A stretch of 64,000 bases of DNA. Source: Paludibacteraceae bacterium (lineage in GTDB: Bacteria; Bacteroidota; Bacteroidia; Bacteroidales; Paludibacteraceae). The notes below the pieces were generated by a model. The model was not told the origin of the DNA. It did no database searches and worked only from the letters and a program-made list of their open reading frames with translations. The stretch lies in assembly GCA_017962085.1 (NCBI GenBank), contig JAGCWA010000049.1, forward strand, positions 44,679 through 108,678, in the 5' to 3' direction. Of the stretch, positions 41,613-60,479 are shown piece after piece. Position 1 is the stretch's first letter. Each line of letters opens with the position of its first letter. The position numbers and the translations under genes were made by a program.

Positions 41613-43997
41613 ATGGCTAATAACGTTCCACCGAAAACTCCCGTCAAAAGAGACGAAGTCCTTTTGCAAGATATTTTCAGCATCTACATCTCCAATTGGA
41701 AGTGGATTTTGCTCTCGCTCTTCATTTGCTTGGCGATCGGCACTTACCACATCCTGACCACCCCTCCGACATATAAATGCACCTCCTCCCTCCTGATCAA
41801 GCAGGACAAGGACGGACAATCGCTTTTGGGCGACGTGGCGATGTCCATGACGGATATTGGTCTCTCCCAATTCAAGATTAACACCTCCAACGTCATCATG
41901 ACGTTCCAGACGCCGGACATCATCCATACGGTGATCCAACGTCTCCACCTGAACGATAGCTACTCGGTGAAGGGTACGTTCCGCGACGAGATACTCTACG
42001 GTTCCAACCTCCCTTTCAACATTGTCTTCGTGGATATGCCAAGCCATGGCGAGGGGAATCTGATCGCTCAAATGAGGGAGGATAGCACCATCAGCCTTGC
42101 CTCCTTCACGGTAGGCGAGGAGATATTCCCTGACGAATTCATCGTGAACTATGGGGATACGGTCAACTCACCGATAGGAAGAATCTTTGTCCAGCAGAAC
42201 AAGTATTACACGGGGGAACCGTTCTATAAACCGATTCAGGTGTCCCACATCAGCGCATACGCCGCCATCGACCAATTCAAGGAGAAGCTTTCGGTCTCCC
42301 TGCGTGACAAGATGGGTACGGTATTCGACCTCTCCTTCACCGACCAGAGCCGTGAGCGCGCGATCGACGTGCTGAAGATGGTGACGAACGTCTACGACGA
42401 GTTCTGGATGCAGGACAAGAACAAGGTGACGCTGAGCACCGTGAACTTCATCACGCAAAGGTTGCGCATCCTGGAGGACGACCTGAACTCCGTGGACGGG
42501 GAGATCGCCACCTACAAGAGTAGCCAGCGCATCCCGGACATCCACGCCACCGCCAACTACGATCTGACCTTGGCGGGCGAGAACGAACGCAACCTGCAGC
42601 AACACGCCAACGAACTCACCGTGGCGCAATACCTGCTGAACTTCCTCAAGAACAACAAGGACCAGCTCATGCCGGCCAACGTGGGCGTCACGGAGCAGAG
42701 CATCCAGGCGCAGATAGCCGAATACAATAAACTGACCCTCCAACGGAGCCGCTTCGTGGAGAGCAGTAGCGAGGAGAACCTCCTCGTCAAGGACATCGAC
42801 AACCAACTCGTCGCGTTGCGCGGGGCGATTATCTCCTCCGTGGAGAACTACATCACCGCCCTGCAACTGCAATTGGACTCTTACGAGTCTAACCGCCACG
42901 AAATCAACTCCAGAATCAGTTCCAACCCGAAACAAGCGGGCCACCTGCTTTCCGCTGAACGTCAGCAGAAGGTGAAGGAGGGACTCTACCTCTTCCTCCT
43001 GCAGAAGAAGGAGGAGTTCGAGATCTCCCAGGCTTTCACCGCCTACGACACGCGCGTCATCATGGAGCCTGAGTATGGCGGGGGTGACAGACCATTCTCC
43101 CCGAACAAGAGGAACGTGGTCGCCTTGGCCTTCCTGCTGGGATTGTCCATTCCGTTCGTCTTCCTCTACGTGAGGGAGTTGCTGAACACCAGGGTGCGCG
43201 GCCGCAAGGACTTGGAGTCGCTCACGATTCCATACGTCGGCGAGATACCGCTCTGCTCACAGAAGAACCACATCAGCGCCTTCTCTTTCCTGCGCAAGGA
43301 GGAAACGGATGAGGAGGTGGAACTGGTGGTCAAACCGCAGAGCCGTGACATCATCAACGAGGCCTTCCGTGTCATCCGTACCAATACGGAGTTCATGTGC
43401 AAGGAGGATGGTGCCGCGACCATCATGATCACATCCGCCAATATCAACAGTGGAAAAACATTCATATCCAGCAACTTGGCCCTCTCCTTCGCCATCAACG
43501 GCAAGCGTGTGATCGCCCTCGACCTGGACCTCCGCAAGGCGACGCTCTCCAAGACGTTCGACTGTCCGAAACACCATGGCGTGGTGGACTACCTCAGCGG
43601 CAACGAGAAGGATTATCACGGACTCATCGTGCATCAGACCCTGGACATCCTGCCTGCGGGCAAACTGCCGCCGAACCCTGCCGAATTGCTCACCTCCAGC
43701 CACTTGGGTGACCTGATCACCGAGCTGCGCAAGGAGTATGACTATATCTTCATCGATTGTCCTCCTGTGGAGATCGTCACCGATGCCGATATCATCAAGC
43801 AATGGGCGGATATGACCCTCTTCGTCGTCCGCGCCAACCTCCTCGAAAAGGCGATCCTGCCTGACATCGAGAAGTATTACACGGACAAGCGTTTCAACAA
43901 GCTGGCCATCGTCCTCAATGGTACCGAATCCATCGGCCACTATGGCTATAAATACGGGTACTACAAAGGCAAATACGGCTACTACGGCCACGAGTAA
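41613..43997 (+). CDS. Wzc-type chain-length regulator / tyrosine autokinase, copy 3
   Basis: A 794-residue tyrosine autokinase: Wzz domain with first helix near residues 35-50, coiled coil, Pro-rich segment and second helix near 510-530, kinase with Walker A (SANINSGKT, about 608-616), Walker A' (VIALDLDLRKAT) and Walker B (IFIDCPP). The tail is a regular Gly-Tyr series (HYGYKYGYYKGKYGYYGHE), different from both other copies. Complete and apparently active. It and its wza are enclosed by oppositely oriented intergenic repeats. Confidence 0.95.
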   Translation: MANNVPPKTPVKRDEVLLQDIFSIYISNWKWILLSLFICLAIGTYHILTTPPTYKCTSSLLIKQDKDGQSLLGDVAMSMTDIGLSQFKINTSNVIMTFQTPDIIHTVIQRLHLNDSYSVKGTFRDEILYGSNLPFNIVFVDMPSHGEGNLIAQMREDSTISLASFTVGEEIFPDEFIVNYGDTVNSPIGRIFVQQNKYYTGEPFYKPIQVSHISAYAAIDQFKEKLSVSLRDKMGTVFDLSFTDQSRERAIDVLKMVTNVYDEFWMQDKNKVTLSTVNFITQRLRILEDDLNSVDGEIATYKSSQRIPDIHATANYDLTLAGENERNLQQHANELTVAQYLLNFLKNNKDQLMPANVGVTEQSIQAQIAEYNKLTLQRSRFVESSSEENLLVKDIDNQLVALRGAIISSVENYITALQLQLDSYESNRHEINSRISSNPKQAGHLLSAERQQKVKEGLYLFLLQKKEEFEISQAFTAYDTRVIMEPEYGGGDRPFSPNKRNVVALAFLLGLSIPFVFLYVRELLNTRVRGRKDLESLTIPYVGEIPLCSQKNHISAFSFLRKEETDEEVELVVKPQSRDIINEAFRVIRTNTEFMCKEDGAATIMITSANINSGKTFISSNLALSFAINGKRVIALDLDLRKATLSKTFDCPKHHGVVDYLSGNEKDYHGLIVHQTLDILPAGKLPPNPAELLTSSHLGDLITELRKEYDYIFIDCPPVEIVTDADIIKQWADMTLFVVRANLLEKAILPDIEKYYTDKRFNKLAIVLNGTESIGHYGYKYGYYKGKYGYYGHE

Positions 43998-44050: not shown

Positions 44051-45025
44051 ATGCCCTCCATCTCCATCATCTGCCCAGTCTACCAAGCCGAAGCATACTT
44101 GGACAGATGCGTGCAATCCATTCTGGCGCAGACCTTCACCGACTTCGAGCTGGTGCTGGTCGACGATGGCAGCCGTGACCGTAGCGGGGAGATGTGCGAC
44201 GAGTATGCCCGCAAGGACAGCCGCGTGCATGCCTACCATAAGCCCAACGGCGGACTCTGCAGCGCGCGGAACATGGGACTTGACCATATCTCGGGAGAAT
44301 ACTCCGTCCATGTGGACCCCGACGATTGGATGGAGCCCACCATGCTGGAGGAACTCTATGCGAAAGCGAAGGAGGAGGACGCGGACATGGTGATCTGCGA
44401 CATCTTCATCAACCGTAACGGCAAGCAATACTACTCCAAGCAGGAGCCAGAGGCGCTGGATCACGAAACGGTCATGAAGGGTTTCTTCCATGACCTCCAT
44501 TCCGCATGCTGGAACAAGCTGGTGCGCCGTTCCTGCTACACGAGCCGAGGCCTCCGCTTCCCCGACAAACTCTACATCTGGGAAGACATGTACTTCAACG
44601 CCTCCCTCTGCATGGAGAATATCAAAATCGTCTATTTGAACAAAGCATTCTATCACTACGACTGCTCTTCGAACCCTAATTCCTTGGTGCGGACCTGCCG
44701 CCCGGAAACCGTCGAATCGCAGAAGTGGGTGATCAGTCATTTCGAGCATATATTGCCGGATCCTTCGTGGCTGGACAACCTCAAGATGGGCACGAAAGAG
44801 CGCCTCTTCTATTCCAGGTTGGGCAACGGAAAGGATCTGTATGACCTCTATCCGGAGGTGAATGAAACATTCCTATCGGGAAGCCGCTCCGCATCCATTG
44901 TGGGACGGTGGACGACCCATGCGCTCAGACATCCGTCGCTTAGTGGCGCATACCGCCTGATGCTCTCCGCGGAAGAGTCCGCGAGAACGCTGGCCGGGAA
45001 AATGAAAAGGTTCTTTATAGGTTGA
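44051..45025 (+). CDS. GT2 glycosyltransferase
   Basis: A 324-residue family 2 enzyme: SIICPVYQAEAYLDRCVQSILAQTFTDFELVLVDDGSRD, GLCSARNMGLDHISGEYSVHVDPDDW with the DPD metal motif near residue 95, and WEDMYFN with the likely catalytic acid. C-terminal part helical. GC-rich like its neighbours. Its polymer assignment is unclear because it lies after the third wza-wzc pair and no priming enzyme or flippase is close by. Confidence 0.92.
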   Translation: MPSISIICPVYQAEAYLDRCVQSILAQTFTDFELVLVDDGSRDRSGEMCDEYARKDSRVHAYHKPNGGLCSARNMGLDHISGEYSVHVDPDDWMEPTMLEELYAKAKEEDADMVICDIFINRNGKQYYSKQEPEALDHETVMKGFFHDLHSACWNKLVRRSCYTSRGLRFPDKLYIWEDMYFNASLCMENIKIVYLNKAFYHYDCSSNPNSLVRTCRPETVESQKWVISHFEHILPDPSWLDNLKMGTKERLFYSRLGNGKDLYDLYPEVNETFLSGSRSASIVGRWTTHALRHPSLSGAYRLMLSAEESARTLAGKMKRFFIG

Positions 45026-45066: not shown

Positions 45067-46023
45067 ATGGACAAACGAATTGAAATGGACGGTAAAACTG
45101 TTCCCACACCGAAAGTGTCGGTCATCGTGCCGGTCTATGGTGTGGAGCACTACATCGAACGTTGCGCGCGCTCTCTGTTCTCGCAGACTTTCAAGAGCGT
45201 GGAGTTCATCTTCGTCAACGACTGCACGAAGGATGCTTCCATGAATGTGCTCTCCGACGTGAGGAAGGAGTATCCGGAGGCGGACGTCAAGGTCATCAAC
45301 CTAGAGCGCAACATGGGTCTGCCACAGGCTCGTCGGGCTGGGGTGGAGCAGGCTACAGGGGATTACATCCTGCATGTGGACTCCGACGACTGGATCGAGC
45401 CCGATATGTTGGAGATTCTCTATGAACGGGCGGTGGATACGGGTGCGGACATGGTATGCTGCGACTGGTCGGAGGAATATGAGGACCATGACGAGGTCCT
45501 CAGCCACTACGAAGCCTCCCGCGACACCTACTACGAGACGATCCTCTCCTTGGAGACGGACGCCTATGTTTGGAGCCGCTTGACGAAACGTGAGGCCTAC
45601 AACGGACTGGAGTTCCCGACCTGCAATATGTTCGAGGACTTCGTGATCACTTCGCAATTGGTGGCCAACTGCCACACCATCGAGTTCGTCCACACCCCGC
45701 TGTACCACTATCGGCGGAGCAACGCCTCCTCGATCCGCTCCTCGGCGGACACGAGGAAAATCCTCTCCCAGGAGGTTCGGAACATCTTCAACGTCTACCA
45801 ACGGGTGACGGAAAAGGAACCCGGGCAACATAAACGGGCGGTCGGACGAATGCTCTTCGCCATGGGGTACCACATCATGCGGCATAACCTGCATGATAGC
45901 CTCACGAAGGAGCAACGGTGCGCCATCTCCCATGGCATCGATTCCCTCCTGCCGAACAAGGACCTCGGATTCTCCATGACCAAGCAAATCGTGCTCTGGA
46001 TCAAGGAGAAGATCAAATACTGA
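45067..46023 (+). CDS. GT2 glycosyltransferase
   Basis: A 318-residue family 2 enzyme: VSVIVPVYGVEHYIERCARSLFSQTFKSVEFIFVNDCTKDAS, GLPQARRAGVEQATGDYILHVDSDDW (DSD near residue 105) and FEDFVITS. It has ten to fifteen extra residues before the first strand; a later start is not obvious. It is the last GC-rich glycosyltransferase before the Rpn-type gene. Confidence 0.92.
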   Translation: MDKRIEMDGKTVPTPKVSVIVPVYGVEHYIERCARSLFSQTFKSVEFIFVNDCTKDASMNVLSDVRKEYPEADVKVINLERNMGLPQARRAGVEQATGDYILHVDSDDWIEPDMLEILYERAVDTGADMVCCDWSEEYEDHDEVLSHYEASRDTYYETILSLETDAYVWSRLTKREAYNGLEFPTCNMFEDFVITSQLVANCHTIEFVHTPLYHYRRSNASSIRSSADTRKILSQEVRNIFNVYQRVTEKEPGQHKRAVGRMLFAMGYHIMRHNLHDSLTKEQRCAISHGIDSLLPNKDLGFSMTKQIVLWIKEKIKY

Positions 46024-46158: not shown

Positions 46159-47064
46159 ATGTCAAAATATCTGAGCCCCAAGGCGGACATAACCTTCAAG
46201 AAGGTGTTCGGTGAGCACAAGAACCTGACCATCAGTTTCTTGAATGCCCTGCTGGACTTCGAGGACAAGGCGAAGATCGTCTCCATCGAGTACCAGACAC
46301 CGGAGATGTTCCCCGAGACGCCCACGAGGAAGTACTCCATCGTGGACGTGCGCTGCAAGGATGACCGCGGGCGCTCCTTCATCGTGGAGATGCAGATGGT
46401 CTGGAACTCGGACTTCAAGCAACGCATCCTCCACAACACGACACGGGCCTACAGCAACCAGCTCGGGCAGGGCAAACCCTTCGCGGACGCCATGCCCGTC
46501 TATGCGCTCTGTCTTATCGACGACACCTTCGAACCGACGCTCAAGAGCAGGCCGGACGACATGTTGGTCAGGGAGTGCAGCCCCTACTACGGGCAGGACT
46601 TCTACCACCACTACATGCTGACGGAGGACGGACACCCCGACCGCATCATCGAAGGACTCAACATCATACTGGTGGAACTGCCGAAGTTCACACCCATGTC
46701 GGGTTCCGACAAACGGATGATGGCGCTCTGGTTGCGTTTCTTGACCGAGATAGACGAGCAGACGACCGTCGTGCCGAAAGAGATGCTCAATTCCGAGGAG
46801 ATCAAGGAGGCACTCGGCATCGTGGAACGTTCCGTCTACACGGACGCCCAGATCCTCGCCTACGACAAGTTCTGGCAAGATGTCGACTACTCCAACCACT
46901 TCGACCCAGACTACCACTTCGGGCTGGGAAAAAGGGAAGGAGTAGCGGAAGGCGAACAAAAAGAGAAGATCCGCACCGCAAAGAAAATGCGACAAAAGGG
47001 CATGTCATCAGAAGACATCGCCGATATAACCGGACTTCCCAAAGAGGAGATCGAAAGGCTGTAG
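46159..47064 (+). CDS. Rpn-family recombination nuclease / PD-(D/E)XK nuclease-family transposase-like protein
   Basis: A 301-residue protein starting KYLSPKADITFKKVFGEHKN, the hallmark of the Rpn/PDDEXK transposase-like family. The nuclease core is YSIVDVRCKDDRGRSFIVEMQ with D63, E77 and Q79. The C-terminus has a charged helix and a helix-turn-helix-like tail (GMSSEDIADITGLPKEEIERL). Such proteins promote RecA-independent recombination or act as mobile genes in Bacteroidetes. It is intact and stands at the left edge of the repeat-flanked KAP gene, so it may be connected with the rearrangement there; that is only a suggestion. Confidence 0.9.
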   Translation: MSKYLSPKADITFKKVFGEHKNLTISFLNALLDFEDKAKIVSIEYQTPEMFPETPTRKYSIVDVRCKDDRGRSFIVEMQMVWNSDFKQRILHNTTRAYSNQLGQGKPFADAMPVYALCLIDDTFEPTLKSRPDDMLVRECSPYYGQDFYHHYMLTEDGHPDRIIEGLNIILVELPKFTPMSGSDKRMMALWLRFLTEIDEQTTVVPKEMLNSEEIKEALGIVERSVYTDAQILAYDKFWQDVDYSNHFDPDYHFGLGKREGVAEGEQKEKIRTAKKMRQKGMSSEDIADITGLPKEEIERL

Positions 47065-47151
47065 ATAACTCCTCATGGAACTGTAGCTCCAACAAATATA
47101 GCCCAAGGCAATGCCCTGTGTTTCCTAATGTGTTGATGTGTATATACCAAT

Positions 47152-47274
47152 CAATGGGATGTGATCCATTTCGCGTCTCATCGTTTCCAATCGATAAATA
47201 ACAATGTTTCCTCAGTCCAATCAACTGAAAGCGGGTGCCGTTCTGAACTATGTCGTCATAGTGCTGAATGTGTT
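47152..47274 (+). repeat. 123-bp direct repeat, left copy
   Basis: Matches 50353-50475 with five mismatches by eye and a constant offset of 3201 bp. Weaker similarity with small indels extends about 20 bp further left. It includes the leader and the first 24 codons of a flippase gene. The pair exactly brackets the KAP NTPase gene. Confidence 0.9.
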
Positions 47275-47296
47275 AAAAGGAATCATCCAGAGATAA
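47204..47296 (+). pseudogene. Flippase (Wzx) gene fragment, left copy
   Basis: ATG at 47204 opens a 30-codon frame. The first 24 residues (starting MFPQSNQLKAGAVLNYVV) are typical of the N-terminus of an oligosaccharide flippase; after codon 24 the sequence changes to unrelated residues and stops at 47296. The rest of the gene is missing. The preceding 47065-47151 hold only a motif like AAGGCAATGCCCTG that is common in Bacteroidales intergenic sequence. Confidence 0.75.
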
Positions 47297-47339
47297 TCAG
47301 CATTATGCTATATTAAGAAGATTTATTAGGATAAATTAA

Positions 47340-50267
47340 ATGAAAGCTTTTATACTAGACCAAGAGCGAGAACTTGACTCTTCGAACGATTTATTAAAAA
47401 CTAGCGTTTACGCCAATAATCTTGTTAGTTTAATAGAGAAAGCACCACAAGACAAGGCTTTCACTATAGGTGTGTTTGGCGGTTGGGGTACGGGAAAGTC
47501 TTCTATTATTAAAACGGCACAGAAAAAGATAGGAAAAGAAGGTGTAAAGTTCATTACATATGATGCATGGAAATATGCTAATGATTCATTTCGCAGGATG
47601 TTTCTTTTGAAAGTCCAACAAGAGCTGGAAATCCAACAGACTGACGAAATGATGCGTTTTTATCAGTCAGAAACGATAGAAGCGAAACCTAAAAGTAAGT
47701 TAAGTGCCAAAGGATTATTTCTTGCCGGAGTTGTTTTACTCATTTTGAGTATTGTTGTTATATTTATCTTGCCCAAAGTAAAAATAGAATGGAAAATAGC
47801 TATACCAACTCTTGGAACTTTTCTAATAGCTCTTTTTAATGGTTGTTTTTATGACTTGAGGCTAACTGTAAATAAACCCACATTGTTTGCTCCAGAGCAG
47901 TTTGAAGCCTGCTTCAAAAAAATGATGAGTAAATGCCTAAAACAAAAAAAAGATGACGGCAAAAGTGATGGTGACAAAAATAAAATAGAAAAACTAATCA
48001 TTGTAATTGACAATATCGACCGATGTCCAAGCGATATAGCATATCAGTTGCTGACAGATATTAAGACTTTTTTAAGTGATGAGGAATACAATTTGGTTTT
48101 TATAGTTCCAGTAGATGATGAGGCCTTAAAAAAACATTTATTCCGTCGTTCGAATAAGGGCATAGGAGATGAAACGAACATAGATAAAGAGAAAGATGAG
48201 TTCTTAAGAAAAATCTTTAATGTGACACTACGTATTAAGCCCCATCAAGAAACTGATCTGCATCATTTTGCCCATGAGATTAATACAAAAAATAACCTTG
48301 GCTATAATAATGATACTTTGGCAATAGTAGCCAAAGTGTTTGCTGATAATCCTCGAAGAATAATTCAATTGCTTAATAATCTAAATGGAGAGTTGGCTTT
48401 GTATGAAAAAAATTTTGCCGAAGAAAACGAAACAGCTATCTGTGTCGCTTTGATTCTGCGAGAAGAATACCCTGATTTTTACAAAGAAACGACGAAAGAT
48501 TTAAATATTATTTATAATAGTGATAAGGAGGACTATAATGAATCCTTAAACGCTTTTATGAGAGTGAGTTGTAGTATTATAAAGAGGACATCGCCAGATG
48601 CATTGTATCGTATATTTACTAATACATCCTCTATTTTCAATGACTTGCCTGACGATATACAGAAATCTGTACGCACATTCGATGTCGACAAGGTAAATGA
48701 ATTCGCAAATACAAATAGTGAAAAGAAAGCAATTCTAGTTGATTATGCTATTGAATCAATGAAGATGGATGTCCAATACGGAGCAACATCACAAACGACA
48801 CAATGGATTGACTTTTATTGTCAACTATATAAAGCGAATGTTTTTGATGAATCAACATTGCATAAAATAAATGAATTATTTGTATTTTCCTATTCTGATG
48901 CCATACCTCACACCAGTTGTCCAAATGAATTATGTTATATGGCCTACAAAATGGAATTTTTGGGTATGATAGAACTTCTTGACTGTATTACAGAATATTT
49001 AGAATCAAACAAGGATCAAGATGATAATGCTAATTATGTTGGTATATTTAGAGGTTATTTAAGCAACCTGAATTCAGAATTAGATTGTAAAGGAATAGCC
49101 AATTTAGTTGGGAATTATTATGTGAAACATCCTATAGATTTTGATATAGCATATACAGACACTCAAAAGAAACTCTTGTTTAATGATTCTTTTGTAACTA
49201 AACAAATAGAAAATATGACCGCCACGGATAATCGTGTACATGTTAAAAATATTATTTGGTGCATCAAGAATAATAAAGGGCTTTCAGGTGACACTTATTT
49301 ATCACTATTTGACAAGTACATAGAATTGTTTGGGAATAGGGCAAAAAACATAGGAGAGTATACAAAACTAATTAACCAGTTATTACCTATTTTTGAGACT
49401 ATAGAAACTTCTTCACTCACAGATCAACCACAATCACTTTATGATATAGTTATAAATACACCTTTAAGTAATCCATATAGAGGTTTAATCATTGATGCGA
49501 TTGACGAAGAACAAGCTAAGATTGTAGTTCCATTCTGCTATGAAATAATGCGTATTTCTGGGGGGGAGATTAACATAAATAACGCTATAAATAGATTATT
49601 CTTAAAATGTCAAGATGCGGTTTTAGAAGGAGCCCTAAAGATACATTCATTAAATATTTCCATACAACCTTTGGCCACTACACTTATAAATGTTGATGAC
49701 TACAACAATCATAATGTGTTGTCTATACTGGAGATAATATTATCTCGACAAAGTGATGGTAGTCTGATGTTAGACAAGGGAACAATTAGGAATAAAATAA
49801 ACAATTTGATTGATAATGTTACCAATAATAACGTTGAAAAGCTTATTCTAAAGTTGGTTGAGGATGATCAACTATTAGATATAGTGACAAAATATGTTTC
49901 TCAATTGGATAGCGAAACAATTAATAAGTTGCCAACATCTGTAGCAAAATATGCAGTAACCACTTTTAATAAAGATACAGCCGGTGCATACAAGGACAAT
50001 GTAGAATTTTTGATTCTTGTTTTAAAGCATGGAGACGCTTCTCAAAAGAAAGAAGTTGTTCGACTAATGAAAGATAAGATTATCAATGAGGATGATTTAG
50101 ACACGGTAGTAAAAGTTCTTGATCATCTTGTTACAGACAACAAAAAAATGCTTGAAAATTTAGTAGGAGAACTTGAAGAAGTTAAAAACAGTGAGAAAGT
50201 AGAAGAAGTAACTAAAGAACGTATATCTGAATTAATTAAGAAGTTATCGTCGTTACAAAAGAAATAA
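47340..50267 (+). CDS. KAP-family P-loop NTPase
   Basis: A 975-residue KAP NTPase. Walker A is GGWGTGKS (residues 47-54). Two transmembrane helices (about 125-145 and 152-171) interrupt the NTPase domain, as is usual in the KAP family. Walker B is IIVIDNIDRCP (about 220-230), and FIVPVDDEAL with a following Arg-rich helix completes the core. The last 550 residues are helical with no recognised domain and end in a Glu/Lys coiled coil. KAP proteins are membrane-associated; some, such as PifA, exclude phages. This copy is strongly AT-rich and lies alone between two direct repeats, like a cargo gene. A defence role is inferred. Confidence 0.9.
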   Translation: MKAFILDQERELDSSNDLLKTSVYANNLVSLIEKAPQDKAFTIGVFGGWGTGKSSIIKTAQKKIGKEGVKFITYDAWKYANDSFRRMFLLKVQQELEIQQTDEMMRFYQSETIEAKPKSKLSAKGLFLAGVVLLILSIVVIFILPKVKIEWKIAIPTLGTFLIALFNGCFYDLRLTVNKPTLFAPEQFEACFKKMMSKCLKQKKDDGKSDGDKNKIEKLIIVIDNIDRCPSDIAYQLLTDIKTFLSDEEYNLVFIVPVDDEALKKHLFRRSNKGIGDETNIDKEKDEFLRKIFNVTLRIKPHQETDLHHFAHEINTKNNLGYNNDTLAIVAKVFADNPRRIIQLLNNLNGELALYEKNFAEENETAICVALILREEYPDFYKETTKDLNIIYNSDKEDYNESLNAFMRVSCSIIKRTSPDALYRIFTNTSSIFNDLPDDIQKSVRTFDVDKVNEFANTNSEKKAILVDYAIESMKMDVQYGATSQTTQWIDFYCQLYKANVFDESTLHKINELFVFSYSDAIPHTSCPNELCYMAYKMEFLGMIELLDCITEYLESNKDQDDNANYVGIFRGYLSNLNSELDCKGIANLVGNYYVKHPIDFDIAYTDTQKKLLFNDSFVTKQIENMTATDNRVHVKNIIWCIKNNKGLSGDTYLSLFDKYIELFGNRAKNIGEYTKLINQLLPIFETIETSSLTDQPQSLYDIVINTPLSNPYRGLIIDAIDEEQAKIVVPFCYEIMRISGGEININNAINRLFLKCQDAVLEGALKIHSLNISIQPLATTLINVDDYNNHNVLSILEIILSRQSDGSLMLDKGTIRNKINNLIDNVTNNNVEKLILKLVEDDQLLDIVTKYVSQLDSETINKLPTSVAKYAVTTFNKDTAGAYKDNVEFLILVLKHGDASQKKEVVRLMKDKIINEDDLDTVVKVLDHLVTDNKKMLENLVGELEEVKNSEKVEEVTKERISELIKKLSSLQKK

Positions 50268-50352
50268 AATATCATACTTCCTCTCGAGTCATACAACCCT
50301 ATCGGTCGACGCACTGAAAAATAGAATGTTGATATATATATAAACCGACAAA

Positions 50353-50475
50353 CAATGGGATGTGATCCATTTCGCGTCTCATCGTTTCCAATCAATAAAT
50401 AACAATGTTTCCTCAGTCCAATCAACTGAAAGCTGGAGCCGTTCTGAACTATGTCGTCATAGTTTTGAATGTGTT
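50353..50475 (+). repeat. 123-bp direct repeat, right copy
   Basis: Partner of 47152-47274 (five mismatches). In this copy the flippase frame continues past the repeat end for another 19 codons, so the right copy is the longer remnant. The bases from 50537 to 50629 hold no gene or clear promoter. Confidence 0.9.
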
Positions 50476-52165: not shown

Positions 52166-52218
52166 TTTGTATTATAAATTATATTCATCATTTGTCATTT
52201 ATAAATAATAAAACAAAA

Positions 52219-52632
52219 ATGGTAATAGGATATACAACTGGTGTTTTTGATATGTTTCACATTGGTCATTTAAACATCCTACGTAAAGCGAAAGAACAAT
52301 GTGACTACTTGATTGTTGGAGTAAGTACGGACGAATTAGTTCAACGTGAAAAAAATAAAACACCAATTATTCCATATAAAGACAGATTTTCAATTGTAGA
52401 ATCCATTAAATATGTTGACTCTGTAGTACCTCAGATAGATAAAAATAAAATGGCAGCATGGGAAAGACTTCATTTTAATAAAATGTTTGTTGGGTCTGAT
52501 TGGAAAGGGACCGAAACTTGGAATAAATTTGAGGAACAATTTAAACCATTAAACGTAGAAATCATATATTTAGATCATACTGATGGAATTAGTTCAACTG
52601 TACTAAGAAACAAATTGAATAGCATAGAATAG
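52219..52632 (+). CDS. Glycerol-3-phosphate cytidylyltransferase-like protein (TagD family)
   Basis: A 137-residue nucleotidyltransferase. I chose ATG 52219, since the upstream TTG at 52192 adds nine residues unlike the family. The catalytic GVFDMFHIGHLNILRKAK (HIGH motif) is near residues 8-25, and DGISSTVLRNKL near the C-terminus matches the ISTTxI region. TagD makes CDP-glycerol from CTP and glycerol-3-phosphate. The next gene is a CDP-glycerol glycerophosphotransferase, so a glycerol-phosphate substituent is the likely product; other polyol or amino-alcohol phosphates cannot be excluded. Confidence 0.9.
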   Translation: MVIGYTTGVFDMFHIGHLNILRKAKEQCDYLIVGVSTDELVQREKNKTPIIPYKDRFSIVESIKYVDSVVPQIDKNKMAAWERLHFNKMFVGSDWKGTETWNKFEEQFKPLNVEIIYLDHTDGISSTVLRNKLNSIE

Positions 52633-52639
52633 TTTAGTT

Positions 52640-53818
52640 ATGAAATTATTTTTAGATCGGATAAAAAATATATTTTGGATAATAATATCATTATTATTTC
52701 GAATGATACTTCCTATAAAAAAAGGAAGAATAATAATGTGGTCATACTTTGGTAAAAACTATTCTTGTAATCCCAAAGCGGTCTCAGACTATATACTATT
52801 GAATCACAAAGATGAATATGATATAATTTGGGCATTTTTAAAAGGAAGAACTCCTACAAAAATGCCAGCAGGCATAAAAACTGTAACATTTAAGACGCTA
52901 AAATATCTATATTATTTAAACAGTTCAGAGTATATTATAACTAATACAAGAACATTTATTTCAGCTTCTTCATGGATAAAAAGGAAGAAACAAAAATATA
53001 TAATGACATGGCATTCTAGTATGGGATTAAAATGTATCGAAGGTGATGCTGATATTAAATCCCTTGGAATTCCATATGTACGAGCAGCTAAACTTGATTC
53101 AAAAAGATGTGATTTAATTATCTCTGGTAGCAAGGCAAGAACCGATGTTATAAAAAGAGCATTTTGGTATGATGGAGAAATTCTTGAAAGTGGGACTCCA
53201 AGGAATGATATATTATTTGACAATAAAAGAATTACAGAGATTAGAGAATCTGTTTTTCGTCACTTTAATATTCCTGAAGATGATTTCGTTATACTATATG
53301 CTCCAACATTTAGAGGATCCTATTCAACTGAGATGTATAGATTAAATTGGAATAGTATTCTTGAAAGTTTTGAAAATAAATTCAAGAAGAATTGTCATAT
53401 AATCGTCAGATTGCATCCAAATTATATTAATAAAGGAATAGACACTTCAGATTTAATAAATTATAGGCACACATATGATGGTACATACTATAATGACATG
53501 CAGGAATTATTAGTTTCAAGCAATGTACTAATAACAGATTACTCTTCGTCAATGTTTGATTATGCGTATATGAAAAAAACAGTTTTTCTATATGCAACAG
53601 ACTATAAAAATTATGATAGAAACACCTACTTCAAATTAGATAGTCTACCATTCCCATTTTCAGACAAAGAATCTGAGTTGATAAAAAACATAGAAAATTA
53701 TAATCAGAATGATTATCTGTTAAATCTCAATACATTTTTAAATGAAGAAATTGGAAGTTATGAATCTGGTATTGCGAATGAAACTCTACTTGCATGGATG
53801 AGACAACATCACATATAA
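52640..53818 (+). CDS. CDP-glycerol glycerophosphotransferase (TagB/TagF family)
   Basis: A 392-residue GT-B-like enzyme of the Glyphos_transf family. An N-terminal membrane-associating stretch (residues 10-25) precedes the catalytic part with TWHSSMGLKCIEGD (about 133), ESGTPRNDILF, LYAPTFRGSYS, IVRLHPNY and ITDYSSSMFDYAYMKKTVFLY, the last being the classic TagB/TagF signature. It would move glycerol phosphate from CDP-glycerol to a sugar. No chain-extending second copy is present, so single substitution is more likely than a long poly(glycerol phosphate). Confidence 0.92.
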   Translation: MKLFLDRIKNIFWIIISLLFRMILPIKKGRIIMWSYFGKNYSCNPKAVSDYILLNHKDEYDIIWAFLKGRTPTKMPAGIKTVTFKTLKYLYYLNSSEYIITNTRTFISASSWIKRKKQKYIMTWHSSMGLKCIEGDADIKSLGIPYVRAAKLDSKRCDLIISGSKARTDVIKRAFWYDGEILESGTPRNDILFDNKRITEIRESVFRHFNIPEDDFVILYAPTFRGSYSTEMYRLNWNSILESFENKFKKNCHIIVRLHPNYINKGIDTSDLINYRHTYDGTYYNDMQELLVSSNVLITDYSSSMFDYAYMKKTVFLYATDYKNYDRNTYFKLDSLPFPFSDKESELIKNIENYNQNDYLLNLNTFLNEEIGSYESGIANETLLAWMRQHHI

Positions 53819-53877
53819 AAACAATATAGATTATACCAAAGGTTTTTTAGTGTATAAATTATAAATAAATGTGATTT

Positions 53878-55032
53878 ATGTTTGATTTCCCTTTCACTGA
53901 ACCAAATACAGTATCATCTCTGCTATTACTAATAATGTATTTTACCATTATCGTAATGAATAAAACCTCTTTAATTTATTACGATGAGGATAACGACGAT
54001 GATACGTATTTATCTTCAAAAGAAAAAATCAATATAGCAATAATAGGGTTGTTTTTGTGTTGTTTTTGTATTGACGGCGATTTCTTCCGGTTTATGGAGG
54101 TAATACACGATTATGATTTTACACTAAATGCATACAACTATGGAGAAGCGATCTATGGATATATAGCACAAATAACAGAGCGTAATTATTTCTTGTTCAG
54201 AATCATTGTTTGGGGAAGTGCTTTCGTATTATTTTGCATATCTTCAAAAAGATTTGGTATAAATATATATTTATCCACATTATATTTATTTGCCACATAT
54301 CCTGTAATATTTAGTTATGCACGCGTAACGCTATGTATGTCAATTTGTTTCTTGGCATTCTCTTATATATGTTGCCCTATTCGTAACAGAATAATAAGTT
54401 TTTTTATCGCATTACTATTATTTTTCATATCGACATTCTTCCATACATCAAGTTATATAATGCTAGCAATGTCTTTGATGGTAATAATTCCACTAAACAA
54501 AAAAAGTTTTATCATACTTCTTCTTTGCTTACCAATATTAATCGTTTTATTCCAAGATATATTTTTGTACACTGCACAACAAGATATATTTTTTTCAGAC
54601 GAACAACTAAATGAACGATTAATTAGAAACGCCGATAGCTATAACGTAATAAAAGGCTTCGATATTAACACTCCTGGGGTTTTCCTTCAAACAATTTTGC
54701 AATACATATCTTTTTATATCCCGATTTTTTATATTATCAAGGTATCGTTGTTTTCCACATCTCAAGAATTAATTGACAATGGGATATTTAAACTAATAAA
54801 GATAATGACAGGTTTTTTGTTGTTGTCAACAATTTTTTTCTTTTTTAAATCAGGAAGTTTTGTTATGTTTTACCGCGTGTTGTTTATGACAATGATACCA
54901 ATTGTATTTGTCGTCTGCTATATGCGACAACAAAACATCATGTCAGAATCTGAATATAGAAAATGTTTATTTAGTGGCATTATTTATTCTTCTATAAGGA
55001 TTTTTTATTGTTTTTACGGATATGGAATGTAA
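53878..55032 (+). CDS. EpsG-like polysaccharide polymerase
   Basis: A 384-residue membrane protein with about ten hydrophobic segments. Like other EpsG proteins it has a short acidic loop after the first helices (DGDFFRFMEVIHDY), then YARVTLCMSICFLAFSY with the conserved Arg, and an FFHTSSYIMLAMSL segment. It is the only polymerase candidate of the low-GC cluster. The 3' end overlaps the following GT2 gene by 11 bp. Confidence 0.82.
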   Translation: MFDFPFTEPNTVSSLLLLIMYFTIIVMNKTSLIYYDEDNDDDTYLSSKEKINIAIIGLFLCCFCIDGDFFRFMEVIHDYDFTLNAYNYGEAIYGYIAQITERNYFLFRIIVWGSAFVLFCISSKRFGINIYLSTLYLFATYPVIFSYARVTLCMSICFLAFSYICCPIRNRIISFFIALLLFFISTFFHTSSYIMLAMSLMVIIPLNKKSFIILLLCLPILIVLFQDIFLYTAQQDIFFSDEQLNERLIRNADSYNVIKGFDINTPGVFLQTILQYISFYIPIFYIIKVSLFSTSQELIDNGIFKLIKIMTGFLLLSTIFFFFKSGSFVMFYRVLFMTMIPIVFVVCYMRQQNIMSESEYRKCLFSGIIYSSIRIFYCFYGYGM

Positions 55033-55987
55033 ATTATCGATTATTGTACCAGTATACAATGTAGAAAAATACATTGAATCATGTATATTTTGTTTTGTAA
55101 ACCAAAAAGGTGTTTCTACCTCAGATTTTGAAGTAATCATAGTAATTGATGGATCTCTAGATAAAAGTGAAGACATAATTACTAATTACGATTGGAAGGA
55201 TTGCAACCATATAATTTATAAACAAAAGAATAGAGGATTAAGTGGAGCTCGAAATTCAGGTTTAGATCTTGCAAAAGGGGAATATATATGGTTTGTGGAT
55301 TCTGATGATACTATCTCTTGTGATTCTGTAGTAACTATATTCAGACATATCACTAATGAAACTGTTGATGTCTTGAATATTGGTTATTCTGAAGTCCATA
55401 ATGGAATAGAAACTATTTCAGCAGAGCCCCAAAACATTGTTGATAGTCGTGAATTATTGATTAATGGATGTTGTGTTCCTGCGCCCTTTCATATATTCCG
55501 ACGTGAATTTTTAATTCACAATAAATTAAAATTTATGGAGGGGATATACCACGAAGATATGGAGTTTACTCCTAAATGCATATATTTAGCTAAAAAAATA
55601 TCCATCGTAAAACAAATATTATACCATTATCAAATACGAGATGGTTCAATTACAACAACAATTTGCTCTAAGCGGGCTTTCGATTATTTAACCGTTGCTT
55701 CTTCATTGATTGATTTCGGATTATTGCAAGGAGAAACAATGCAATCAACTCCATTTTCAAGATTAATTTGTTTATCTATAAACAATGCTTTATACATAAT
55801 ATCTCAAACAGATAAAGCAACACAAACAGAATGGATTTTTAAATTCAATGCCAATCCTATATACACAGATTATTTGTTTAATTCAAGCATCTTTAAATAC
55901 AAACTAGAGGGATTTTTATTCAAATACTTAAAAATCAACGAGATACTTATATATAAAACACTAACAAAATTTAAGCAGATTAGATGA
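55022..55987 (+). CDS. GT2 glycosyltransferase
   Basis: A 321-residue family 2 enzyme: LSIIVPVYNVEKYIESCIFCFVNQKG, VIDGSLDKSEDII, GLSGARNSGLDLAKGEYIWFVDSDDT (DSD near residue 96) and YHEDMEFTPK. It is built like the gene at 16267, including the helical C-terminus, but in an AT-rich setting. Overlaps the polymerase gene by 11 bp and the next gene by 4 bp. Confidence 0.93.
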   Translation: MECKLSIIVPVYNVEKYIESCIFCFVNQKGVSTSDFEVIIVIDGSLDKSEDIITNYDWKDCNHIIYKQKNRGLSGARNSGLDLAKGEYIWFVDSDDTISCDSVVTIFRHITNETVDVLNIGYSEVHNGIETISAEPQNIVDSRELLINGCCVPAPFHIFRREFLIHNKLKFMEGIYHEDMEFTPKCIYLAKKISIVKQILYHYQIRDGSITTTICSKRAFDYLTVASSLIDFGLLQGETMQSTPFSRLICLSINNALYIISQTDKATQTEWIFKFNANPIYTDYLFNSSIFKYKLEGFLFKYLKINEILIYKTLTKFKQIR

Positions 55988-57105
55988 AAGTACTTTTTGT
56001 TTCTCGAGATATTACACATCATCTTGTTCCATTCTTTAAGTGTCTGTTGAATCATTATGGAAATGATAATTGTATATTTGCAGTTACAGAACATTTTGAA
56101 ATGAGGGACAAAATGGGATTCCCTCAATATGATGGAAAATGGATATTCCGTGTCAGTAAACATTCACAAGAAGAATATCGTAGTTTGTGGGACAAATCAG
56201 ATATAATTATAACAAGATTATGGAATGAATATAGTTTAGTAAAAACATCTCTTGAGAAAGGTAAAATTGTATTTTATGCATCTGAAAGATGGTTTAAACC
56301 CCCTGTGGGAATTAAAAGATTATTTCTTCCTTCATACTTGAAAATATTATTTGATTTTAAAAGATTATCCAAACACTCAAATTTCTTTTATCTAGCTATG
56401 GGTTATTATGCAGGCTGTGATTTCAGTAGAGTTGGCTTGTGTAAGGGTAAAACATTTAATTTTGGATATTTTACTCCGGAATATGAGTTTACACATCCGA
56501 TTGAGCCATCTAACATGAAAAAATTAATTTGGGTTGGCAATATGCTTGACTGGAAACGAACAATTGATATTCTCGTGGCATATAAAGATTTGTCAGAAAG
56601 GTATAATATCTCATTAAAAATAATAGGGGAAGGTGATGAAAGAAAAACATTGGAAGAATACGTAAAAAAAAATAATTTGTCGAATGTTTCTTTTGAAAAT
56701 TTTCTTCCCAATGAAAATGTTAAAAAAGAATTAGAAAATGCAGATATATATATAATGCCAAGTAATGGCTACGAAGGATGGGGAGCTGTAGTGAATGAAG
56801 CAATGCAAACTAAGTGTGCTGTTGTTTCATCAAAGGAAATTGGTTCTGCTCGAAGCATGATTATTGATGGAGAAAACGGATTATTATATCATTCTGGCAA
56901 CATAAATGAGTTAAAGCAATCCATTTCCAAATTATTGAATGATAATGAGTTATTGAATTCTATTCAAGAGGCTGGGTATAGAACCATAACACAAGTATGG
57001 TCTGCCCAAGAAGCTGCCAGAAGATTTGACATCGTAGTAAATTGTATTCTCGAGCAGAAATCAATTATACATTTTAAAGATGGTCCATTAAAATTAATTT
57101 TCTGA
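55984..57105 (+). CDS. GT4 glycosyltransferase
   Basis: A 373-residue GT-B enzyme. N-terminus KVLFVSRDITHHLVPFFKCLL; C-terminal signature MPSNGYEGWGAVVNEAMQTKCAVVSSKEIGSARSMI (about residues 258-295) with the E-x7-E type donor-binding motif. Related proteins often transfer fucose, galactose or similar residues, but the sugar is not predictable here. Confidence 0.9.
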   Translation: MKVLFVSRDITHHLVPFFKCLLNHYGNDNCIFAVTEHFEMRDKMGFPQYDGKWIFRVSKHSQEEYRSLWDKSDIIITRLWNEYSLVKTSLEKGKIVFYASERWFKPPVGIKRLFLPSYLKILFDFKRLSKHSNFFYLAMGYYAGCDFSRVGLCKGKTFNFGYFTPEYEFTHPIEPSNMKKLIWVGNMLDWKRTIDILVAYKDLSERYNISLKIIGEGDERKTLEEYVKKNNLSNVSFENFLPNENVKKELENADIYIMPSNGYEGWGAVVNEAMQTKCAVVSSKEIGSARSMIIDGENGLLYHSGNINELKQSISKLLNDNELLNSIQEAGYRTITQVWSAQEAARRFDIVVNCILEQKSIIHFKDGPLKLIF

Positions 57106-57162
57106 AATCACATAAAGACTCCTTGAATTATAAATAACTCCACATCAAAAACATCTTCTAAA

Positions 57163-57942
57163 ATGGCAAATAAACCTATTATATCAATTGTAACCATTGT
57201 ATTCAACGGAAAGGATGGAATAGAGAAAACTATCAAATCTGTATTGTCTCAGACATACAAAAACATAGAATATATCATTATTGATGGAGCATCTACAGAT
57301 GGAACACTTGATATTATTCAGAGATATAAGCCAAATTTAACAAAATTGATAAGCGAAAGAGATTCTGGCATATATAATGCAATGAACAAAGGATTAGCAC
57401 TAGCAAAAGGAGATTATATATATTTTGCAAATTCTGGAGATTTAATTGCAGACGATGATGTGATTAGGAAGGTGGCGGAGGCAATTGTTGCAAATGACAA
57501 GTGGCCAGATTTAGTATATGGATGTTATCAGGAATTGAATAATAATGTCGTTGGACCTATTATTCCATGTAGAAATCACAAGTGGTCATGGTATGGAATG
57601 TTTGCATCCCATCAAAGTGTTTTTTGCAAAAAAGAAGTCATTGATGAACATAATATAATCTTCGATGAATCCTATAAAATTGCTGCTGATTATAAATTCC
57701 TATTAACGATAGTTAAGCATAGTCATTCTTTTTTACAACTTCCTTTTTCAATATCTCTTTTTGATGTTAGTGGTGTTAGTTCAACAAATCAAGACAAAGG
57801 TCTTTATGAAGCTGATCGTGCCAGAAAAGAAGTACTTGAATTAAACTGGTTCAAAAGAAAGTTTATTATTTTCGTCTCTTTATTGGCAAGATACTCTAAA
57901 AAACATTTAGGTGTAATATACAGGAGCATTAGAAACAGATGA
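57163..57942 (+). CDS. GT2 glycosyltransferase (WcaA/WcaE-like)
   Basis: A 259-residue compact GT2 enzyme: ISIVTIVFNGKDGIEKTIKSVLSQTYKNIEYIIIDGASTDGTLDII, SERDSGIYNAMNKGLALAKGDYIYFANSGD. The acidic metal motif is the NSGD variant, as in WcaE-type colanic-acid transferases. A paralogue is at 60734. The gene overlaps the acetyltransferase gene by 4 bp, matching the WcaE-WcaF order known from colanic acid clusters. Confidence 0.9.
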   Translation: MANKPIISIVTIVFNGKDGIEKTIKSVLSQTYKNIEYIIIDGASTDGTLDIIQRYKPNLTKLISERDSGIYNAMNKGLALAKGDYIYFANSGDLIADDDVIRKVAEAIVANDKWPDLVYGCYQELNNNVVGPIIPCRNHKWSWYGMFASHQSVFCKKEVIDEHNIIFDESYKIAADYKFLLTIVKHSHSFLQLPFSISLFDVSGVSSTNQDKGLYEADRARKEVLELNWFKRKFIIFVSLLARYSKKHLGVIYRSIRNR

Positions 57943-58475
57943 ATCTTTCAAATTACAAAGAAGAAAAACCACATAACTTAAAACGACTTGTGTGGTATGC
58001 GATTAATGCAACATTATTTCGCATATTAATTGGCAGATCTTTTACTTGGGCAAGGCATGGCTTATTGCGTGCCTTTGGTGCAACAATAAATAAAGATGCA
58101 TACATATATCCATCTGCCACGATTTTTGCTCCATGGAATTTAAATGTTGGACGTGCATGCATTGGGCCAAACACCATAGTGTATAATAAGGCACCTATCC
58201 ACATAGGGAACGATACAGTTGTGTCTCAAGGGGCCTTTCTATGTACAGCAAGCCATGATATCAAAGATTTAATGTTGCCCCTAATAACTGCATCAATTAC
58301 ACTAAAAGACAATGTGTGGGTTGCAGCTGATGCTTTTATAGGTATGGGAGTAACAATTGGAGATGGTGCAGTAGTAGGCGCTCGTGCTGTCGTATTCAAT
58401 GATGTAGAACCATGGACTGTTGTTGGAGGAAATCCAGCTAAATTTATAAAAAATAGAAACTTAAAAAACAAATGA
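57939..58475 (+). CDS. WcaF-like hexapeptide-repeat acetyltransferase
   Basis: A 178-residue left-handed beta-helix acetyltransferase. N-terminal basic helix (LVWYAINATLFRILIGRSFTWARHGLLRAFGATI) is typical of WcaF-type enzymes, followed by hexapeptide repeats and CTASHDIKDLMLPLITASITLKDNVWVAADAFIGMGVTIGDGAVVGARAVV, with the catalytic His in ASHD. It probably O-acetylates a lipid-linked sugar in the cytoplasm. Confidence 0.92.
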   Translation: MNLSNYKEEKPHNLKRLVWYAINATLFRILIGRSFTWARHGLLRAFGATINKDAYIYPSATIFAPWNLNVGRACIGPNTIVYNKAPIHIGNDTVVSQGAFLCTASHDIKDLMLPLITASITLKDNVWVAADAFIGMGVTIGDGAVVGARAVVFNDVEPWTVVGGNPAKFIKNRNLKNK

Positions 58476-59512
58476 AAGATATTGACATAAAAAAATCCCT
58501 TCGTGAAATAGTGTATAGGGAAGAAAATGATAATCATATTGATTATATTGATCTTGCAAAAGGCATATGTATACTAATGGTTGTAAGCTACCATTGCGAT
58601 TATGGGGATTTTCTTTACTCGAATGATATTGTTAATTCATTTTTCTTCTCATTTAGAATGCCATTATACTTTTTCTTGTCTGGAATTTTCATTTCATTTA
58701 AATATGGTTATAGAAATTTTTTCAAGAAAAAAATTAACAGATTAATTATTCCGTTCATATTCTTTTATTTCACATCATCTGTTGTTAATGAATTTATAAC
58801 ACCAAGGGAAGTCCCTTCTATGTTTGAATTCCTTTTGACTGAAACGAAAAACAATTTTTGGAATACACCTATTTGGTTCTTAATATCATTGTTTACAACA
58901 TATTGTATGTACATGACAATCCATAAATTTATTTCTAAAAACATATATCTGATTCTAATCTTATCCATAATCATTGGAATTGGTGGATTTAGTCTTTCAT
59001 ATAAATCCATTAATATTCCATTTTTTCTAGACACATCTATGACTTGTTTCCCTTTTGTTGTCTTTGGGGGAATAATGAGAAATAAATATCATTTGCTCGA
59101 TAATATATCTAAAATCAGATGTGTTGTTTTCTCATCAATCTCATTTTTTTTCGTATTTCTATTTTGTAATGGGAATCAATTATTTTATGAAAACAAATAC
59201 GATTGTAATTTAATAGAATTATATCTATGTGGCTTCTTTGGAAGTGTAGGTTTGGTATATTTTTCAAAAATATTAAATTACGTGCCAATAATAAATTACA
59301 TAGGAAGGTATAGCATAATTGTTCTCGGATTTCATAAAATATTCATTTTAAGACCAATACTTCTTAGAATCACAGACTTGCCTATTAGTATAGTTGTTCT
59401 ATTATCATTGCTTTTATCTGTAATTTGTTGTATAATAATGATATATATTTGTCGTAGATATTTACCTAGTATGGTGGCACAAAAAGATTTGCTATTTAAA
59501 TCAGATCTTTAA
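58472..59512 (+). CDS. Acyltransferase family 3 membrane protein
   Basis: A 346-residue protein with about ten hydrophobic segments. The N-terminal DLAKGICILMVVSYHCDYGDFLYSNDIVNSFFFSFRMPLYFFLSGIF is the acyltransferase-3 signature with the His of SYHC and the RMPLYFFLSG block. Such proteins bring acyl groups across the inner membrane for O-acylation of exported polysaccharide. It is the last gene of the AT-rich island. Confidence 0.92.
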   Translation: MKDIDIKKSLREIVYREENDNHIDYIDLAKGICILMVVSYHCDYGDFLYSNDIVNSFFFSFRMPLYFFLSGIFISFKYGYRNFFKKKINRLIIPFIFFYFTSSVVNEFITPREVPSMFEFLLTETKNNFWNTPIWFLISLFTTYCMYMTIHKFISKNIYLILILSIIIGIGGFSLSYKSINIPFFLDTSMTCFPFVVFGGIMRNKYHLLDNISKIRCVVFSSISFFFVFLFCNGNQLFYENKYDCNLIELYLCGFFGSVGLVYFSKILNYVPIINYIGRYSIIVLGFHKIFILRPILLRITDLPISIVVLLSLLLSVICCIIMIYICRRYLPSMVAQKDLLFKSDL

Positions 59513-59576: not shown

Positions 59577-60479
59577 ATGTTAGATTTATCCGTCATCATC
59601 CTCACCTACAACGAGGAGCTGCATATCCGTCGTTGCTTGGAGAACGTATGTCCCATCGCCAAAGAGGTCTATGTGATCGATTGTTTTTCCACAGACCAGA
59701 CCCAAGAGATATGCGCCGAGTTCAAGAACGTAAGGGTAGTGGAACATGAATGGCCAGGCAACCAAGCCACACAATTCAATTGGGCCTTGGACCATCTGGA
59801 AATCAACACGGATTGGATCTTGCGATTGGATGCGGACGAATATCTACTTCCCGAACTAGCGGAGGAGATGACCCAAACGGTTCCCTCATTGCCTCAAGAT
59901 GTAACCGGCATAGAGTTGAAACGCAGACATATCTTCATGGACAAATGGGTAAAACATGGCATCTACCCGGTTGTGATGATGCGCATGTTCCGAAATGGAG
60001 AGGGACGTTACGACAATAGGCTGATGGACGAACATATATCGCTTCAAAGCGGTCATTCCATCACCCTGAAAAACGACTTCTGCGACCATTCATTAATTTC
60101 TATATCAGACTATTGCAGGAAACATATCAACTATGCGCAACGAGAGGCGTGCGAGGTGTTGACGGAGACATACCAACTGAGGGAAGTTCCCGTCCAAGCA
60201 ACCCACCTTGGGAAACAAGCCACCGCAAAGCATCAAACAAAGAGCGGATACAACAAACTCCCTCTTTTCCTGCGCAGTTTCGCCTACTTCCTCTATCGCT
60301 ATATCATACGAGTCGGTTTCCTCGATGGAAAGGAAGGTTTTCTATTCGCCTTTATCCAAGGATGGTGGTACAGGACCTTAGTGGACGCAAATATACTAGC
60401 CTGCAAAAAGGCATGTGGAGGCGACAAAGAGAAAATCAAGGAATATATCGCAAAGGAGTGGGGAATAGAAGTTAATTAA
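59577..60479 (+). CDS. GT2 glycosyltransferase (WaaE/LgtF-like)
   Basis: A 300-residue family 2 transferase of the LgtF/KdtX type: LSVIILTYNEELHIRRCLENV, VIDCFSTDQTQEI, WPGNQATQFNWALDHLEINTDWILRLDADEYL (DAD near residue 88), and HLGKQATAKHQTKSGYNKLPLFLRSFAYFLYRYI. Base composition is back to the value of the flanking genome. Related enzymes act on lipid A core or capsule. The stop codon lies inside an AATTAAG repeat. Confidence 0.92.
   Translation: MLDLSVIILTYNEELHIRRCLENVCPIAKEVYVIDCFSTDQTQEICAEFKNVRVVEHEWPGNQATQFNWALDHLEINTDWILRLDADEYLLPELAEEMTQTVPSLPQDVTGIELKRRHIFMDKWVKHGIYPVVMMRMFRNGEGRYDNRLMDEHISLQSGHSITLKNDFCDHSLISISDYCRKHINYAQREACEVLTETYQLREVPVQATHLGKQATAKHQTKSGYNKLPLFLRSFAYFLYRYIIRVGFLDGKEGFLFAFIQGWWYRTLVDANILACKKACGGDKEKIKEYIAKEWGIEVN

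Follow-up and report, generated by a model that had tools for sequence, protein, structure and literature searches.

We analyzed a 64,000-nt window of DNA from a Paludibacteraceae bacterium (contig JAGCWA010000049.1, here contig C25 of the 3.37-Mb draft genome G000), in which a gene for a KAP family P-loop NTPase lies at the edge of a capsule locus between two direct repeats, each carrying the start of a Wzx-type flippase gene. The comparison set consisted of 16 genomes of the genus, including G000. The capsule cluster begins in the left half of the locus with a wzc-type gene, followed by two glycosyltransferase genes; these are followed, in order, by a PDDEXK_2 gene, the left repeat, the KAP gene, the right repeat, an intact flippase gene, an AT-rich capsule cassette, and a further glycosyltransferase gene (Table 1). 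The guanine-plus-cytosine content is 0.54-0.56 at 42-47 kb and 0.27-0.36 at 47-60 kb of the window. Of note, the intact flippase after the right repeat differs from the flippase whose start the repeats carry. No tRNA was found in the window as a landing site.

The repeat is present in the assembly as two 127-nt copies with a spacing of 3201 and 95% identity, and the six mismatches lie at 47151, 47193, 47233, 47236, 47263, and 47264 (left-copy coordinates). No longer direct repeat was found at 40-60 kb of the window, where the next in length (108 nt, 71%) lies in two adjoining glycosyltransferase genes; a search of the whole of G000 with the repeat gave only two strong matches (E 2.5e-61 and 3.3e-53), with the next at E 1.3. 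In the left copy, 24 flippase codons are followed by six foreign codons and a stop, giving an open reading frame (ORF) of 30 amino acids (aa) at 47204-47296, and the remnant ORF of the right copy has 43 aa. An earlier note on this DNA had described 123-bp repeats from 47152 with an offset of 3201 and five mismatches, flippase starts ending after codon 24 on the left and codon 43 on the right, and a KAP gene of ~3 kb without a partner between them. This description is borne out: the full repeat is 127 bp with six mismatches, reading of the ORFs confirmed both lengths, and neither neighbor of KAP, the PDDEXK_2 gene and the flippase gene, is an obvious partner.

Table 1 Features of the capsule locus in the window
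Feature	Position	Strand	Remarks
wzc-type gene	41613-43997		Capsule cluster start
Glycosyltransferase	44051-45025		Capsule cluster start
Glycosyltransferase, 318 aa, conserved left wall of cargo slot	45067-46023	+	Pfam Glycos_transf_2; in 9/16 genus genomes at E<=1e-60
PDDEXK_2 (Rpn-type) gene, slot cargo	46159-47064	+	Pfam E 1.9e-36, TIGR01784
Type A leader, upstream part, kept beside left repeat only	47085-47147	+	G001 match; absent beside right repeat
Left repeat: leader and first 24 flippase codons	47148-47274	+	ATG at 47204
Unique stretch, left remnant to KAP start	47275-47339	+	
KAP family P-loop NTPase, 975 aa	47340-50267	+	Pfam E 1.2e-28; Walker A residue 47, Walker B-like 220
KAP 3' flank, common to G006, not to left repeat	50268-50348	+	98.9% identity to G006, 747 columns
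Right repeat: leader and flippase start	50349-50475	+	ATG at 50405; 43-aa remnant ORF runs to 50536
Full-length flippase of present capsule cassette, 511 aa	50630-52165	+	Pfam Polysacc_synt and MatE
AT-rich capsule cassette genes	52192-59512	+	
Glycosyltransferase right of cassette, conserved in G005	59577-60479	+	84.6% identity to G005, 997 columns; Pfam

The flippase start in related genomes

Because the same start opens proteins of 507 aa in G001 and 506 aa in G005, the two remnants are, on comparative grounds, flippase starts. The start was present in seven of the 16 genus genomes and, in a search of 358 family genomes, in no other genus; two more matches, of 29 bp and at other places in G000 and G006, were too weak to be counted. 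It opens an intact gene in G001 and G005 and an intact relative in G002, the G001 gene having the same leader as the repeat and the G005 gene another leader before the same start. In G003, G006, and G013, the start is cut at about codon 26, leaving ORFs of 30, 31, and 30 aa, respectively, and other capsule genes follow. The gene at this seam is found both intact (G001, G002, G005) and truncated (G003, G006, G013, and twice in the window), as expected of a cps-type island capture that leaves a truncated resident gene. In the three genomes with a truncated start, a gene whose product begins MTQLYWQVYL and has no good Pfam match follows the flippase remnant (L024:4918-5826, L027:10107-10916, L029:8212-9021).

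The sequences on either side of the start show that it behaves as a recombination seam: the cargo upstream of it and the capsule cassette downstream vary independently of each other. G006 carries KAP and the right-hand copy, without the left copy, and aligns with the window over this part at 97.1% (2408 columns) and 98.9% (747 columns), the core wzc-type gene being 89% identical. Past codon 24-26, the G006 sequence follows that of G003 (86.5% over 800 columns beginning at the seam start), a genome with a different leader and AbiL genes upstream of the seam. Because G006 and G003 are 86% identical within the 57 coding bases before this point, the changeover in G006 lies at the end of that stretch. 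G001 and G005 are 92.0% identical from codon 5-6 of wzx onward, with leaders that differ and upstream core genes at 80-83%, and G003 and G013 share 94.4% identity over the 5.4 kb after the remnant as against 84.8% in the upstream core. These alignments show more than one re-pairing of upstream with downstream parts between species of the genus, at the flippase start or next to it; the number and direction of these events are what we infer.

In G006, the PDDEXK gene is in frame with KAP, and the 3' end of the PDDEXK gene and the left repeat are missing (L024:44-2845); the two G006 contigs involved share an identical overlap of 141 bases within the PDDEXK gene. The missing 3' end of this gene speaks for a deletion, by which G006 may have lost the left copy rather than never having had one. 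Because an insertion element, presumably of the IS3 type, splits the KAP gene with a 5-bp target duplication (L024:2811-4112), KAP is probably dead in G006.

Origin of the repeat

The two copies of the repeat have different nearest relatives. The coding part of the left copy is nearest G013 (96%), and the right copy is identical to the G006 copy at 57/57 coding bases; G006 and the right copy have bases at positions 47233 and 47263 that do not occur in any of the six remaining aligned sequences. The left copy retains 63 bp of upstream leader in common with G001 (84% over 200 columns for window 47085-47268), and the right copy has the KAP 3' flank in this place. Because the left copy keeps the ancestral upstream leader and the right copy is G006-like with the KAP 3' flank, we consider it probable that a block composed of KAP, leader, truncated wzx, and capsule genes was captured by a join within a resident flippase gene, and that the repeats are the truncated wzx 5' ends of the resident and the incoming DNA. 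Specifically, the resident locus would have had the order PDDEXK-leader-wzx and the donor the order KAP-leader-wzx'-capsule cassette. The left end would be an illegitimate join inside the resident wzx at codon 24, and the right end may have been joined by homology at the glycosyltransferase at 59577, with the outcome that KAP lies between two wzx starts. KAP could later be lost again through RecA-type recombination between the 127-bp repeats.

The earlier note had offered a cargo insertion with duplication of the target 5' end or, alternatively, two successive arrivals at the same site. The second proposal is close to the model favored here; the first is not supported, given the separate affinities of the two copies and the leader that only the left one has. 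Insertion of KAP alone, or of a small element, at the wzx start with duplication of ~127 bp of target would explain why a single direct repeat encloses the gene and why the left copy stops where foreign DNA starts. Nevertheless, because the copies differ at 6/127 positions and have unlike upstream flanks in addition to different nearest relatives, and because no recombinase was recognized beside KAP, whose neighbors are the PDDEXK_2 and flippase genes, we regard a transposon-type target duplication as improbable. To our knowledge, no transposon makes target duplications of ~127 bp.

A circle with KAP and a leader-wzx piece that entered the resident leader-wzx by a single crossover would also leave two flanking copies, with the left one ending at the circle junction, as observed; such a route is proposed for Rhs tips in the available part of a published model for Rhs displacement (PMC2935791). 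In this case, the copies should be mosaics of resident and donor, but at the tested sites only the right copy agrees with G006, and it does so through codon 24. This comparison would miss a crossover close to one end of the repeat. We rate a circle as unlikely. A local tandem duplication of leader-wzx, with KAP and later a new cassette arriving between and after the copies, is compatible with a left copy that looks ancestral and a right copy that looks derived; however, the window alone has two copies among the seven genomes with the flippase start, and we give this history very little weight.

We also considered that the remnant might have been retained because it serves the following genes as a regulatory leader or a leader peptide. 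Four of the five remnants are ORFs of 30-31 aa with a hydrophobic core, and the start is conserved at 96% (left copy and G013) as against ~88% for the conserved upstream genes. On the other hand, two unrelated leaders precede the same coding start, the junctions in G003, G006, and G013 are related so that their ORFs are not independent, no RNA element in the window was matched by Rfam at gathering score, and recombination explains the conservation equally well. Retention for such a function therefore seems most improbable to us.

Returning to the capture of a KAP block within a resident flippase gene, several findings count against it. A donor block with KAP, leader, truncated wzx, and the cassette of the window was absent from the 16 genus genomes, as was an empty resident strain with the exact flanks of the window. 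The 65 bp before KAP are without a good match in these genomes (best other E 0.0012), and a close KAP is found in only two of them. The order of events rests on few sites (47233, 47263), and an older duplication followed by divergence could give the same pattern. The palindromic repeat that flanks other cargo upstream of the seam (see below) is missing from the window, and the assignment of KAP to defense rests on partial family matches.

The proposal in the earlier note that a capsule locus acts as a landing site stands in part. KAP is accessory (2/16) and lies directly upstream of one copy of the flippase start in both genomes with a close KAP (two genomes only), and the flippase start has been reused as a junction. 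The repeat is not a general landing site, as it is in two copies in the window only among the seven genomes with the start; the variable slot is the interval upstream. No relative with two flippase fragments and without KAP was found among the 16 genomes. Altogether, the best explanation for the repeat in the window is a cargo-bearing recombination scar that combines two known phenomena, capsule-cassette exchange and a defense hotspot. If this is right, an odd repeat would become a readable record of capsule-cassette replacement.

There are partial precedents for such a scar. In the meningococcal cps island with Regions D and D', a capsule locus has one gene in an intact and a truncated copy around imported DNA, and illegitimate recombination of the island into galE leaving a truncated galE2 has been proposed (available part of PMC5349592); its inverted repeats enclose the synthesis block and retain the 3' portion of the gene, whereas those in the window are in direct orientation, retain the 5' end, and enclose a single KAP gene. 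In Rhs C-terminal displacement, as far as the consulted portion of PMC2935791 describes it, a conserved start is likewise kept, incoming DNA displaces the variable rest, and orphan fragments remain as a record. In Rhs loci, where toxins are involved, the displaced tips stay in tandem, whereas here a capsule cassette and upstream cargo would be exchanged.

The KAP protein

KAP proteins are defined by Walker A and Walker B motifs with one or more hydrophobic membrane segments inserted between them. The protein in the window has this architecture: GGWGTGKS is found at 47 and IIVIDNID at 220, and hydropathy windows, used here rather than a membrane predictor, indicate hydrophobic segments that are strong at windows starting 119-135 and marginal at 153. 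It matches Pfam KAP_NTPase with 100.6 bits (cut-off 20) over residues 22-347, corresponding to 2-285 of the 293 profile positions, and so belongs to the family. The C-terminal ~600 residues have no Pfam match at 0.01, and there is no convincing solved relative (best E 0.43).

Close KAP homologs within the genus are limited to G000 and G006, with weak matches in G008 and G012. At E<=1e-40, KAP was found in six of the 358 family genomes, i.e. G000, G006, and four at 33-45% identity, one of which matches over the N-terminal 395 residues only. Distant KAP genes lie among N6-methylase and helicase-like genes in L049; near methylase, ORC-CDC6-like ATPase, and sugar-transferase genes in L050; and near DegT aminotransferase and glycosyltransferase genes in L048. 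No defense or sugar neighbor of those kinds was seen by eye in L047. These neighborhoods fit, but do not prove, an anti-phage role. In L048 and L050, which represent two further genera of the family, a distant KAP has polysaccharide genes close by. Seven plasmid records match KAP, all with less than 60% identity and in no case over more than 80% of the query, and in viral contigs 6 and 58 pattern stretches for KAP were returned with no relative confirmed.

Among known defense proteins, QatA and PifA resemble KAP in the P-loop region, and differ in that the best KAP matches to them are short and N-terminal. KAP matches QatA in PADLOC with E 2.2e-17 (best stretch residues 14-79); it would not be classed as QatA itself, as the NCBIfam equivalog scores 64.6 bits against a cut-off of 600. 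The PADLOC match to PifA (E 3.7e-8) pairs residues 22-111/975 with 22-108/720 and lacks full-length similarity, so KAP would not be classed as PifA either. We consider an anti-phage role for KAP plausible and, by analogy to PifA, its likely mode of action would be sensing of infection followed by a membrane-linked abortive response.

A cargo slot upstream of the seam

The interval from the 318-aa glycosyltransferase to the flippase start or the first cassette genes, hereafter the slot, has different contents in different genomes. In the window it holds the PDDEXK_2 gene and KAP, and in G006 the PDDEXK gene running into the split KAP in one frame. G009 has a PDDEXK_2 gene, AbiLi and AbiLii, and a 758-aa Mrr-nSTAND3 protein (PDC-S73 match 2.5e-131), and G003 has two capsule-type genes and then AbiLi and AbiLii. 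In G001, the slot contains an ornithine-cyclodeaminase-like gene, a SocA/Panacea protein with a small neighbor, DUF3791, and DUF3990 (PDC-M13B match 1.2e-44). G005 has only a close copy of the cyclodeaminase-like gene, and G013 only an epimerase-like gene (named by eye from its translation). The slots of G011 and G012, which were not scanned by profile, hold other genes, none recognized by eye as defense-type. Close copies of the PDDEXK_2 gene occur among the 16 genomes only in G000, G006, and G009, always in the slot; G000 and G009 have one copy each, and in G006 a single gene is divided between two contigs. The AbiL blocks of G003 and G009 are 93.5% identical over 2620 columns and the flanking gene 79.4%; AbiLi itself is found in three of the 16 genomes, namely G003, G009 (98%), and G004 at 67%.

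Defense-type genes are present in the slot of five of the nine genomes with the left wall (KAP in two, the AbiL pair in two, and the Panacea pair with DUF3990 in one), and in three of the nine if KAP is not counted. The same flanks enclose at least three unrelated kinds of defense-type gene in different genomes, as in a defense hotspot. Of the scanned slot proteins, seven of 11 have a PADLOC match at E<=1e-10 (KAP, two AbiLi, two AbiLii, DUF3990, and the PDC-S73 protein); PDDEXK_2, Panacea, the Panacea neighbor, and the cyclodeaminase-like protein have none. As a control, 87 further proteins were taken from the window and from five relatives; one of them has a match at this threshold (families PDC-M13, PDC-M10), probably the product of a DUF3990-like gene at 62398-62901, right of the capsule genes of the window. 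The slot proteins were picked after seeing translations. The Fisher p for slot versus control is 1.8e-7; it is 1.1e-4 with KAP and the second AbiL pair dropped, and 4.2e-6 if five slot proteins that were not scanned (DUF3791 and an 87-aa ORF of G001, the single genes of G005 and G013, and PDDEXK of G009) are taken as misses. All of these values are descriptive. The two capsule-type genes of G003 inside the interval were counted in the control set, and the slot proteins of G006, G011, and G012 were unscanned. These data suggest that the slot just upstream of the seam repeatedly houses defense-type genes, several unrelated kinds of which may have come and gone, and that KAP is probably one of them.

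The part of the locus that we find most interesting, and which was absent from the earlier note, is that the slot has a private repeat. A 156-bp stretch in G013 (L029:9380-9535) carries a GACGCAAAATTTTGCGTC-type palindrome and represents an intergenic repeat with units near 85 or 120 bp. All 16 matches at E<=1e-10 lie in the slot, in six of the 16 genus genomes (G001, G003, G005, G006, G009, G013); all first-look candidates were scored in these six, and the best 40 of 48, 82, and 64 candidates in G004, G014, and G015, respectively. The repeat flanks AbiL on each side in G003 and G009, and likewise the Panacea pair in G001; in G006 it stands solely upstream of the PDDEXK gene. It has no match in the window and so does not flank KAP. 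As a check for empty sites, G005 and G013 have a tract of the repeat in the slot and no defense-type gene, yet each has one other gene. Because the palindromic repeat brackets AbiL and the Panacea pair, cargo between copies of locus-specific DNA is recurrent here, KAP between flippase starts being a variation and not an identical case.

Defense genes that change between constant flanks are described in the available parts of reports on E. coli hotspots (PMC10121019) and the Pseudomonas cDHS (PMC10250203), and the authors of the latter suggest transfer by homologous recombination of the conserved flanks. Here, by comparison, one wall is a variable capsule cassette, and the borders are the palindromic repeat and the flippase start; the main text of PMC10121019, as available, has no occurrence of polysaccharide, capsul, or O-antigen. 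The neighborhood as such has a precedent in lactococcal eps islands, in which AbiV, a phage-defense gene, lies alongside a transferred polysaccharide cluster (available part of PMC12599335). Those islands are ~45-55 kb with phage, plasmid, and transposase genes, and a shared seam is not described in that part of the report. In a partial search of the open-access literature, no defense slot at a capsule or polysaccharide locus in Bacteroidales was met.

We tentatively suggest, as a possibility toward which we remain reserved, that the capsule edge serves as an exchange slot for anti-phage genes and works without a recombinase belonging to the slot. Cargo (KAP, AbiL, Panacea pair) between locus-specific copies, either of the palindromic repeat, which was matched nowhere else in these genomes, or of the flippase start, would move by homologous recombination, sometimes along with a new capsule type, and so might swap surface receptor and intracellular defense in one event. 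If true, there would be a physical link between capsule switching and the gain of intracellular phage defense in these rumen-type Bacteroidales, and both the short flippase start and the repeat of the slot could serve as markers for undescribed defense genes in uncultured relatives. The palindromic repeat tract in G003 comprises ~5.3 units of 120 bp.

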